Shown here: piece by piece, positions 1,561 to 57,600 of the stretch
Position numbering within the stretch: the first letter of the stretch is position 1
Layout: each line of letters opens with the position of its first letter
Source of the DNA: Candidatus Borkfalkia faecavium
GTDB taxonomy: Bacteria > Bacillota > Clostridia > Christensenellales > Borkfalkiaceae
DNA length: 64,000 nucleotides
Direction: 5' to 3'
Assembly (NCBI GenBank): GCA_019114755.1
Contig: DXEW01000003.1
Coordinates: 17,332-81,331 of the forward strand
Made by a program: the position numbers and the translations under genes
The notes under the pieces: generated by a model
Databases searched by the model: none
What the model was told of the DNA's origin: nothing
The model's input: the letters and a program-made list of their open reading frames with translations, nothing else

Positions 1561-1584
1561 CGGATACAATAAAAAATAATTCTC

Positions 1585-1901
1585 GCGCAAGCAAAACCAC
1601 GCTTTTGCGCCAGCGCCCCCAATTTGCCGTTAGGCTCATGCAGGAAAGGTGAAGCCGCGGCATTTTTATTCCAAACTATTCTCAAAAAACGGCAAAATCA
1701 CACTTTTGCCGTTTTTCCCTTATGAGCATACGGATGGAGGTGAATGCGCCGCGCGTTTTATCAAGGGTGTGCCCTGCAATGCGCGGCGCAGAGGGGAGAA
1801 ACCGCCGCCAGTATGGCGCGCAAATTTGCGCGCCAACGCACGGCAGGTTTCCCCCTTACTCTCGACAATTTCTTTCGTCAGCTCGAAAGAAATTGTGAGA
1901 A
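1585..1901 (-). repeat. Multi-hairpin 3' element, copy 1 (behind the GNAT gene)
   Basis: The element begins directly after the GNAT stop codon and runs in the gene's direction. Hairpin 1 pairs CACAATTTCTTTCG with CGAAAGAAATTGT around the loop AGCTGA. A GC-rich hairpin follows, then a hairpin with the conserved loop GGGCACACC, and finally hairpins with CAAAA/TTTTG stems. This copy has an extra CAAAA/TTTTG hairpin at about 1688-1715 followed by a T-run, and a repeated TTCACC block, so it looks partly duplicated. Related copies lie at 21829, 32305 and 36333. Confidence 0.8.
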
Positions 1902-2396
1902 CTAAATTCTGTATTCATAAATATAATCATCCATCACAAAGCCGCTGCCGATGTCGGTGACGGTGTGGTCGGTGCGCGTGAAGCCGAACTTTTCGTAAGC
2001 GCGCACGGCGCGGGCGTTGCCCGTGTTGACGGTGAGGTACACCGCCTTCAGCCCCCTCTCTGCGGCGATCTCTGCCACGGCGGCGAGCGCCTTTTGCCCG
2101 ATGCCGCGGCCGCGCTCTTCTTCCGTAAGGTATAATTTGGAGAGGAACAGCTTCTCTTTTTCGGGGTGCAGGGCGCAGTAGCCGATGCGCCGCCCTTCGC
2201 CTTCGATATAATAATACAGGTACCCCTCTTCGCGCACCTGCCGTTCGATGGCGGCGGCGCTTTGGAAGGTATCCGTCATATACTTGACCTGCGCTTCGCC
2301 CAAAAGGCCGTCGTACGCGGTGTGCCACTGGCGGGCGATGAACTGCGCCAGCGGGGCGTATTCTTCTTTTTGAGCGGGAACAAAACGGATGTCCAT
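1902..2396 (-). CDS. GNAT-family N-acetyltransferase
   Basis: The 164-residue product has the GNAT acetyl-CoA fold: a central EEERGRGIGQKAL segment matching the R/Q-x-x-G-x-G/A pyrophosphate loop, followed by LTVNTGNARAVRAYEKFGF, the standard motif B region. The acceptor substrate cannot be read from sequence. The ATG at 2396 is preceded by GAGGAG; the longer frame in the track lacks a ribosome site. TATAAT about 20 bases upstream of that site gives the gene its own promoter. The stop codon abuts a copy of the multi-hairpin 3' element. Confidence 0.88.
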   Translation of the reverse strand: MDIRFVPAQKEEYAPLAQFIARQWHTAYDGLLGEAQVKYMTDTFQSAAAIERQVREEGYLYYYIEGEGRRIGYCALHPEKEKLFLSKLYLTEEERGRGIGQKALAAVAEIAAERGLKAVYLTVNTGNARAVRAYEKFGFTRTDHTVTDIGSGFVMDDYIYEYRI

Positions 2397-20979: not shown

Positions 20980-21812
20980 CAATACGCGCCCTCTCCCCTT
21001 CCGCCGCTCCGCGAAGCCGCGACCGCGCCCCTGCAACGCCTGTACCCGCGCACTTCGCTCCCCACCTTGTCACCCTGAGCTCGTCGTCACACGCCTATGC
21101 TGTCAGCATTTTGCCTTTTGGCAAAACGCTCGACCTGCAAGGCGGCTCCTCCTCTTTCCCAAAAATCTCGCTGCGCTGCGATTTTCGGGAGCCCTATTAT
21201 CATAGCCCGCCGAGTGGAGTTATCTTGCGCGTTTGCGTATCGGAAGACAAACGCCTTCCCTTCCTTGCCTTCCCCCTTTTTAAGGGGGAAGGTGGCACGA
21301 GCCGCTTTTGCGGCGCGTGACGAATGAGGGTTGTTCCATCCTTATTATTAGCCGCTCCGCCTAAAATAAGGACAGTATCCCCTCATCAGGCGCTCCGCGC
21401 CAGCTTCCCCATCAGGGGGAAGCCATGCATAGAGCCATTTTCTTCTCTGCTTTACCATTCTATACAAGAGCCCTCCGCTCGGTCGCTTTTACAGGGATCC
21501 CAAAAAGTATCGAAAAACTTTTTGGGAAGAGGAGCGGCAGGCGCTGCGGGCGAGGCGGCAAACGCAGTGCGCCGCCTGCCTTGGCGCCTTGCCGCGACGA
21601 GCTCGGGATGACAAGGATGCGTTTTGTTTTCAGAGATCCTTCGTCGCTTCGCTCCTCAGGATGACAGGGGGGGAGGCGCGGCGGGGCGCACGGGCGCGAG
21701 CTTTCCTTCTATGTCACCCTGAGCGGAGCGGCGAACAGAATGTGAGCCGCGCAGTCGAATGGGTCTCTTTTAAATGTAGAATGTAGAATGTAAAATGTAG
21801 AATTGAGGATAC
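20980..21812. repeat. Repeat island A
   Basis: About 830 bases without a credible gene. They contain, in order, a CACCCTGAGCTCGTCG unit, a CGCAAGATTTC-like unit, a roughly 180-base block ending CCTTCCCCCTTTTTAAGGGG and CTCATCAGGCGCTCCGCGCC, the CCAAAAAGTATCGAAAAACT block with its GC-rich tail, GAGATCCTTCGTCG, a CACCCTGAGCGGAGCGGCGA unit and a heptamer array. All recur in the islands at 32.6, 36.1, 49.1, 57.1 and 63 kb. Short frames across it are repeat-derived. Confidence 0.85.
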
Positions 21813-21828
21813 AATAAAAATAATACTC

Positions 21829-22062
21829 GCGCAAGCAAAACCACGCTTTTGCGCCAGCGCACCCCATTTGCCGCATACCTGCGGCTCTTGCAGGAAAGGT
21901 GAAGGCTGCGCGCATTTTATAATAAGTGTGCCCTGAAAAGGCGCGCTGCCGAGGAAAACTCCGAACAGAAAACGCGCTATCTGCCGATAGCGCGTTTTGG
22001 TTGGGGTTTTCCTAAAATCACGGAATTTTGTTTCATCAGCTTGAAACAAAATTTGTGAACCC
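21829..22062 (-). repeat. Multi-hairpin 3' element, copy 2 (behind phoU)
   Basis: Starting directly at the phoU stop, the gene strand reads GGGTTCACAAATTTTGTTTC, loop AGCTGA, then the complementary arm. AGGAAAACCCC, a hairpin built on a CGCGCTATC/GATAGCGCG pair, a third hairpin with loop CAGGGCACAC and CACCTTTCCTGCA follow. The last hairpin is GCGCAAAAGCGTGGTTTTGC. It is the copy closest to copy 3 in hairpin 1. Confidence 0.85.
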
Positions 22063-32304: not shown

Positions 32305-32536
32305 GTTCACACAATTCTCGCCGCGACGGCGGCTGCGAATTGTCGTGATTTTAGGGAAACCCCGCGGGGCGCCATTCGGCTAGCCGCGGGGTTTCCCTCT
32401 TTGCGCGGCGATTTAAGGGCACGCCTTTATCAAACGCCGCGCAAATTCACCTTTCCCCGTGCAGCTCCTCGCTGTAAGGGGAAAAAGGCAAAAGCGTCGT
32501 TTTGCCTTTTTCTGTTGTTTATGGAGCGATAGAGAG
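32305..32536 (+). repeat. Multi-hairpin 3' element, copy 4 (behind the aldose-epimerase gene)
   Basis: Five bases past the stop codon the plus strand reads GTTCACACAATTC with its complementary arm GAATTGTCGTGATTTTAGG. A GGGAAACCCCGCGG hairpin, a GCGCGGCG/CGCCGCGC hairpin with the conserved loop AAGGGCACGCCTTTATC, and ACCTTTCCCC follow. The last hairpin, AAGGCAAAAGCG with CGTTTTGCCTT, has a T-run, and the copy ends ATGGAGCGATAGAGAG. Hairpin 1 is more divergent than in the other copies. Confidence 0.83.
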
Positions 32537-36332: not shown

Positions 36333-36571
36333 CTCCCTATCGCTCCATCAATCAAGGAAAAAGGCAAAACCACGCTTTTGCCTTTTTCACCCTACAGCGA
36401 GGAGCTGCATGCAGGAAAGGTGAATGTGCCGCACGTTTATAAAAGGTGTGCCCCTAAATGTGCGGCACAGAGGAAAACTCCGATTGCGCCGCGCTGCAAG
36501 CGCGGACAATGGGGTTTTCCTAAAAATCACGAAATTTTGTTTCATCAGCTTGAAACAAAATTTGTGAACCC
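36333..36571 (-). repeat. Multi-hairpin 3' element, copy 3 (behind the upstream feoA)
   Basis: From the feoA stop the gene strand reads GGGTTCACAAATTTTGTTTC, loop AGCTGA and the matching arm, then TTTTTAGGAAAACCCC. Next come a GC-rich hairpin, GTGCCGCAC/GTGCGGCAC around the loop ATTTAGGGGCACACC, then CACCTTTCCTGCATGCAGC. AAGGCAAAAGCGTGGTTTTG with a T-run follows, and the copy ends ATGGAGCGATAGGGAG as in copy 4. It is the most complete copy. Confidence 0.87.
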
Positions 36572-49059: not shown

Positions 49060-49500
49060 ACATCTTACACTTTACATTTTACACTTATCTCTGTCATCCC
49101 GACCGAGGGAGCGAGAGAAACGAGCGACCGAGCAGAGGGATCTTGTATAGGACGCAAAAGCAGGGAAGAACACGGCAAAAAGAGTTCGTTTCCCGATACG
49201 CACCGCGCAAGATTTCTCCACTCGGCGGGCTTGCAGCCCTTCTCGGTCGAAATGACAGAAAGAGAGACCCGTTCGACTTCGCGGCTCGGCTTTGCCTTCG
49301 CCGCTCCGCTCAGGGTGACATAGGCGGGCGTTCGCGTTGCTTCCCTCTCTGTCATCCTGAACTCGTCGCGCCAAGGCGCCATGGCAGACGGCGCACTGCG
49401 TTTGCCGCCTTGCCCGCAGCGCCTGCCGCTCCTCTTCCCAAAAAGTTCTTCGATACTTTTTGGGAGCCTTATTTTGAGTCCGTGCGAGTCGAAGGATCTC
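49060..49500. repeat. Repeat island C
   Basis: Contains a heptamer array, CATCCCGACCGAGGGAGCG, the CGATACGCACCGCGCAAGAT / CTCGGTCGAAATGACAG unit, a CCCGTTCGACTTCGCGGCTC / CTCAGGGTGACA unit, and a CATCCTGAACTCGTCGCGCC / AAAAAGTTCTTCGATACTTT block. Gene-like frames here are repeat-derived. Confidence 0.87.
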
Positions 49501-49502
49501 TT

Positions 49503-49612
49503 CTTAAATGTAAAATTTAGAATGTAGAATGGTAAATTTCGGAAAGAAAATAAAATACTTTTTGATCCATCCAAAATTCTACACTTTACATTTTACATTT
49601 TACACTTATCTC
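49503..49612. repeat. Inverted heptamer arrays
   Basis: TAAATGTAAAATTTAGAATG at 49505 and the inverted TTCTACACTTTACATTTTAC at 49575 flank about 45 bases, similar to the elements at 27.9 and 57.1 kb. Confidence 0.8.
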
Positions 49613-49639
49613 CGTCATCCCGATCGAGGGAAGCGAGTC

Positions 49640-57039: not shown

Positions 57040-57600
57040 CCCCATGTCATCCTGAGCGAGCGTAGCGAGCCGAAGGATCTCTTTTTGAATGGTAAATGTA
57101 AAATGTAGAATGTAAAGTTTTGGACGATGTATAAAACATTTTTTGAATACATCCTGAATTTTACATTTTACACTCTACATTCTACATTTCTCCCTTGTCA
57201 TCCCGACCGAGCGAAGCGAGTGGAGGGATCTTGTATAGGGCGCAAAAGCTGTTCCGAACACGGTTCTCTACATGGCTTCCCCCTGAGGGTGAAGCTGGCG
57301 CGAAGCGCCTGATGAGGGGATACCATCCTTGTTTTAGGCGGAGCGGTTAATAATGAGGACGGAACAACCCTCATCCTCGTCGCGTCAAGGCGCCATGGCA
57401 GACGGCGCGCTATGCTTGCCGCCTTGCCCGTTGCGCCTGCCGCTCCTCTTCCCAAAAAGTTCTTCGATACTTTTTGGGAGCCCTATATATGCGTGCCACC
57501 TTCCCCCTTAAAAAGGGTGAAGGCATGAATAGGGAAGGCGTTCGTAACCGATACGCACCGCGCAAGATTTCCCCCTTCGGCGGGCAAGGCGGGCGGCGGA
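57040..57600. repeat. Repeat island D
   Basis: Contains a TCATCCTGAGCGAGCGTAGC unit, inverted heptamer arrays (57088-57120 and 57158-57190), a CATCCCGACCGAGCGAAGCG unit, the CTTCCCCCTGAGGGTGAAGC / CTGATGAGGGGATACC block, the CGTCAAGGCGCCATGGCAGA / AAAAAGTTCTTCGATACTTT block, and a CGATACGCACCGCGCAAGAT remnant. No credible gene was seen in the 860 bases between parB and the transporter promoter. Confidence 0.87.

Follow-up and report, generated by a model that had tools for sequence, protein, structure and literature searches.

What is a chain of hairpins, apparently one and the same, doing directly behind the stop codons of four unrelated genes? The question is raised by the feoA locus and by three others in the window (the whole stretch of DNA analysed, 64,000 nucleotides long), for which a sequence-only reading had argued for selection on RNA structure and had offered a 3' UTR control module, a composite terminator, or a mobile repeat that targets gene ends. 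The covariance model R1 gave only four strong matches in the window, with E values from 1e-36 to 2e-26. Three lie on the minus strand, at 1739-1901 (copy 1), 21898-22059 (copy 2) and 36419-36568 (copy 4), and one on the plus strand, at 32306-32451 (copy 3). By Pfam, the host genes of the four copies encode GNAT, PhoU, Aldose_epim and FeoA proteins. The distance from stop codon to the initial TTCAC/TTCTC is 0, 3, 5 and 3 nt over the four copies, and in 4/4 cases the element runs in the direction of the preceding gene. The R1 matches, Pfam assignments and stop codon distances thus confirm the places, genes and direction first claimed, and the parts said to be common to the four copies are indeed present in all of them.

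When the model match is joined to hairpins 4 and 5 as read from the sequence, the whole element 3' of feoA spans 36345-36569 on the minus strand. It begins with hairpin 1 (36527-36568), which carries the loop AGCTGA and a bulged C before GTGA, followed by hairpin 2 (36470-36521; AGGAAAACCCC...GGAGTTTTCCTC, from the sequence and alignment A1) and hairpin 3 (36425-36469; loop ATTTAGGGGCACACCTTTTATAAA). The segment TTCACCTTTCC with hairpin 4 (36387-36424) and hairpin 5 (36356-36386; AAAAAGGCAAAAGCGTGGTTTTGCCTTTTT, a terminator-like version) were read from the sequence. From R1 match and sequence together, copy 3 occupies 32305-32536 (plus strand), 3' of the aldose-epimerase-like gene. Copy 2, at 21828-22060 (minus strand) 3' of phoU, was delimited in the same way with the help of relatives, and its hairpin 5 lacks a U-tract. 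The copy behind the GNAT gene, originally placed at 1585-1901, is real but is actually a full copy (1668-1902, minus strand, R1 match and sequence) with the 3' half of another directly behind it (1573-1667, minus strand), in which the sequence contains the 3' arm of hairpin 3, TTCACCTTTCC and hairpins 4-5. Further repeat families fill other intergenic regions of the window (49060-49631, 57065-57213, 21750-21831 and others), as arrays of TACATTTTACATT, units of the form GAGATCCTTCG...CTCAGGATGACAG, and units of CGTCGCGCCAAGGCGCCATGGC.

Across copies, the element is a chain of five ordered hairpins, about 240 nt long. Hairpin 1 combines a TTCAC stem with the AGCTGA loop and a bulged pyrimidine before GTGA; then come hairpin 2, hairpin 3 with a mostly G+C-rich stem and the loop TTTAGGGGCACACCTTTTATAAA, the TTCACCTTTCC segment, hairpin 4, and hairpin 5 with a bulged purine, one C-G or T-A pair and a GTG-type triloop. 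Loops are conserved while stem sequences vary freely between copies. No terminal inverted repeats are visible between the 5' end GTTCAC and the 3' end GAGTATTATTT, and a search of Rfam covariance models returned no match for the element. In several copies (L006, L009 and L016 in the window's own genome, L205:1535 in genome G015) a different repeat, GGCAAGGCGCCATGGC... ending GGGAGCCCTG, is nested within hairpin 3.

The sequence-only reading had suggested a covariance-model search of this and related genomes, and that search uncovered a multicopy family. In the window's own genome (G000, a Candidatus Borkfalkia relative), blastn gave 73 matching pieces, and a covariance model of hairpins 1-3 gave 79 places at an E value of 1e-6, and 84 when E <= 0.01 was allowed. 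The element was found in 23/25 genomes of the genus, with copies per genome ranging from none to at least 76; contigs named Candidatus Borkfalkia faecipullorum are among those with the pattern. Beyond the genus it is rare: an order-wide sample of 248 genomes gave matches in only 8, namely its own genome, six from two other genera of the same family, and one from another family. A further model, based on the sister genus, recovered 56 copies in G217, a near-complete genome, 30 in G270 and 0-6 in five others. The versions in the sister genus and in the one other family are diverged homologues. The genome G053, which belongs to a different family within the order, carries distant versions at L245, L252, L256, L259, L261 and L263, partly in tandem, whose hairpin 2 is similar and which have a TTCACTCTTTTCC motif. 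No copy was found in viral contigs, phages or plasmids at the sensitivity used, and the literature yielded no description for Borkfalkia or for any matching repeat.

The position of copies relative to genes was assessed with an in-frame hexamer score trained per genome. A copy was counted as docked when the distance of its 5' end from the stop codon of a gene read in the same direction was between -18 and +25 nt; counts cover copies with both flanks present, and random points were drawn in the same loci. By this count, 23/51 copies of G000, 16/33 of G015 and 17/35 of G217 (about 45-49%) have their 5' end at a stop codon, compared to 5/204, 1/132 and 4/140 random points (about 2%), a roughly 20-fold enrichment. 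For 3' ends the corresponding counts are 0/51, 0/33 and 4/35. The complete lists put the number of stop-codon cases at 38 for G000, 33 for G015 and 29 for G217, and most gaps measure 0-9 nt. Copies are thus far from random with respect to gene ends and orientation; a start at the stop codon holds for all four window copies, but genome-wide some copies sit elsewhere. Roughly a tenth face a divergent gene start (about 8 in G000, 11 in G015 and 7 in G217, scored and then judged by eye), a rate that has no valid random-point control, as start codons inside genes score too, and those in G015 and G217 often abut or partly form the ribosome-binding site. The remaining copies form head-to-tail arrays or lie behind intrinsic terminators or an older left-arm remnant of hairpin 1. 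Replication-strand bias was dropped as a cause of orientation, copies of opposite orientation sitting side by side.

Some copies contain the stop codon of the upstream gene. At L105:2502-2648 (G000:C28) and at L187, L191, L194 and L195 in G015 it apparently falls within hairpin 1, so that the element would supply the end of the reading frame. Left-arm remnants of hairpin 1, ending ATGAA or GACGCTG, precede full copies at L026, L027, L088, L101, L076 and L086 in G000, and one junction is repeated after left arms that differ from each other. An array of four head-to-tail copies with a period of about 282 nt lies at L083:641-1605 (the same stretch is in L012; G000:C11), immediately upstream of the 5' end of a gene that was judged by eye to be tmRNA-like; the spacers between the copies are similar to this gene's own 5' flank. 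At L090:7342 (G000:C20), an array of three tandem copies has a promoter-like TTGCCT-18-TATAAT immediately ahead of its first copy and may be transcribed on its own.

Variation in the stems bears most directly on whether the element is maintained as RNA. Compensatory changes affect 23/26 pairs of hairpins 1 and 3 (35 copies), with a covariation score of 0.755 versus 0.239 +/- 0.014 for shuffled and <=0.20 for slid controls, and covariation lies far beyond both controls in both genera. One-sided stem changes are nearly absent, with 2/902 cells in alignment A1. The refuting outcome named in the sequence-only reading, no significant covariation, did not occur, covariation being strong in hairpins 1 and 3. 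Selection on RNA pairing of one strand should favour G-U over A-C. Among distinct stem versions from three genomes, we counted 34 G-U pairs and 26 A-C mismatches, and for hairpin 3 alone 7 and 11. The 18 tRNAs of the same loci gave 23 G-U and 0 A-C (Fisher P about 4e-5), a control somewhat biased by the preference of ARAGORN itself for paired stems. As A-C is about as common as G-U, the covariation does not show selection on RNA, and this part of the earlier claim is not supported by it. Such a Watson-Crick-only pattern is compatible with hairpins formed in DNA, with one arm being corrected by the other, or with folding that is needed on both strands; RNA folding required on both strands would likewise suppress G-U pairs. 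The stems are best read as maintained at the DNA level, as near-perfect palindromes. Pairwise distances in hairpin 1 show no correlation with those in hairpin 3 (r = -0.04) and next to none with those in the tail (0.07), whereas r is 0.28-0.47 between hairpin 2, hairpin 3 and the tail; copies are therefore mosaics, with breakpoints mostly behind hairpin 1.

The same result weighs on the best surviving rival, in which the element is a host 3' UTR RNA module (a terminator, mRNA stabiliser or attenuator) under selection for its RNA fold and spread by recombination at gene ends. Sense orientation right after stop codons and conserved loops are as such a module would have them, and phoU provides the clearest case. 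Here the element directly follows the stop codon in five species, with no ordinary terminator ahead of it, and in several element-free species an ordinary G+C hairpin and U-run occupies the same place. Judging from this comparison, the element can stand where a terminator stood. However, in the 30 nt that follow the loop of hairpin 5, a TTTTT occurs in 36/51 copies of G000 but in 13/33 of G015 and just 5/35 of G217, and several G217 copies lie in tight gaps, where the following co-directional gene starts no more than about 50 nt away. The element is thus not conserved as a terminator, nor is it simply an intrinsic one, since the U-tract belongs to some copies and not to the family. The composite terminator once suggested is not supported as a general role, even though at phoU the element does take the place of an ordinary terminator. 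Like intrinsic terminators, it sits directly after stop codons, replaces one at phoU and has one hairpin 5 version with a U-tract; unlike them, it does not conserve that tract, occupies tight co-directional gaps, and is mobile and modular. Since G-U is not preferred in the stems, some copies are antisense at gene starts, and sites are mostly unshared between species, we consider the host RNA module unlikely.

Evidence of movement comes from flanking direct repeats at three copies, of 42 nt (L294), 19 nt (L311) and 14 nt (L200). At L200 and L311 the repeat stops exactly at the 5' end of the element, and at L294 it stops 4 nt short of that end; the 3' members lie about 27-45 nt past hairpin 5. 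Such repeats are clear in only 3 of about 195 copies and are of unequal length, and the L294 and L200 insertions are not docked behind a same-direction stop codon. Most docked sites of G000 and G015 are unshared. About five are common to both; chance alone would give roughly 0.7, taking 38 x 33 stop-codon sites and assuming 1700 genes. This excess could reflect function or hot spots. Copies at the shared sites are no more alike than random cross-species pairs, pointing to either hot spots or replacement. Together with a copy number of 0 to about 80, the direct repeats and mostly unshared sites indicate that the element moves. The suggestion of a mobile repeat targeting gene ends is thus supported, by multiple copies in varying number, direct repeats and the enrichment at stop codons. 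It appears quite unlikely that the element is instead an old immobile repeat, homogenised in each genome by gene conversion and tandem duplication. Mosaic modules, arrays, hairpin 1 remnants ahead of full copies and a greater mean similarity score within genomes (217-218) than across them (192) would all suit such a history, but not the flanking direct repeats, the mostly unshared sites, or a sister-genus copy number ranging from 0 to 56.

A REP-like or IS200/IS605-derived element, moved in trans by a Y1 (HUH) transposase recognising terminal hairpins, would explain why hairpins with conserved bulged bases lie close to either end, as well as the high copy number and the lack of visible terminal inverted repeats, and Y1 transposases do occur in some related genomes. 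However, Y1_Tnp (PF01797) had no match in the draft genomes G000 (about 80 copies) and G217 (56 copies), and it had 5 matches in G001 and 3 in G004, both free of the element. Transposase presence shows no correlation with copy number, which weighs more than any single absence as all genomes are drafts. Y1 elements are not known to make direct repeats at insertions, and direct repeats do flank these; this origin is highly unlikely. Least probable of all, and barely credible, is a retro-mobile, SINE-like structured RNA with a fixed 5' end, variable 3' end and variable-length target duplications, which would explain the variable direct repeats and the 27-45 nt of extra sequence on the 3' side, but not the lack of G-U preference. 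Moreover, 23/25 genomes of the genus lack RVT_1 (PF00078), as do G217 and G270. RVT_1 had no match in G000 either, and both Y1 transposase and reverse transcriptase were rejected as mobilisers, being absent from G000 and G217 as judged by these two profiles. An autonomous partner, suspected in repeated sequence before truncated G217 copies, was also rejected, the sequence being a geneless-looking insert in hairpin 1. This insert of ~300 nt, with no evident gene, was seen at L311:8731, L303:105, L299:3400, L318:164 and L319:1581, 3/5 of these copies lying at contig ends. The core motif of integron attC sites presumably does not fit the element.

Our preferred account is that this is probably a non-autonomous, mobile, modular interspersed mosaic repeat of the Borkfalkia lineage, with structure at the DNA level and docked at gene edges. 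Its hairpins would act, or be copied, as single-strand DNA, with arms mutually corrected by template switching, which would yield covariation of Watson-Crick type only. The 5' end would come to dock against a gene through later loss of intervening DNA, as suggested by three insertions that still have their direct repeats, two of which are undocked. Once docked, a copy would serve as the 3' UTR of the gene and could take the place of the gene's own terminator, as at phoU, and it may affect expression. More tentatively, and with less than even likelihood, the element may represent an undescribed mobile class of ordered multi-hairpin DNA, recognised by its loops, with arms copied from each other and the 5' end docked at the edges of translated regions.

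Compared to known repeats, the element is best read as a new interspersed mosaic family, closest in kind to BIMEs and BOX/SPRITE repeats. Like REP/BIME sequences with their RAYT, it is multicopy, palindromic, mosaic, outside genes and often in transcribed 3' regions; unlike them, it has about 240 nt in five ordered hairpins with unconserved stem sequences, and its high-copy draft genomes G000 and G217 have no Y1 (RAYT) transposase. In REPs (PMC2817692) a GT(A/G)G head precedes one conserved, G+C-rich palindrome some 20-40 nt long; the element lacks this head, begins TTCAC/TCGG and has five hairpins with variable stems. With BOX, RUP and SPRITE of pneumococcus it shares a small, interspersed, hairpin-forming, modular and presumably mobile nature, and SPRITE is terminator-like and enriched 3' of genes (PMC3049150). 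The element differs from these in its strict 5' docking at stop codons or ribosome-binding sites, its lack of visible terminal inverted repeats, its Watson-Crick stem covariation and its lineage, in a comparison by architecture only (PMC3049150).

Strong compensatory covariation is normally taken as proof of a functional RNA, and here it comes without the G-U mark of RNA; covarying repeats therefore need a G-U test. For the gut bacteria that carry it, this one repeat occupies dozens of gene 3' ends and at phoU has replaced a terminator. As an element with no visible mobiliser, it offers a lead to an unknown transposition mechanism.
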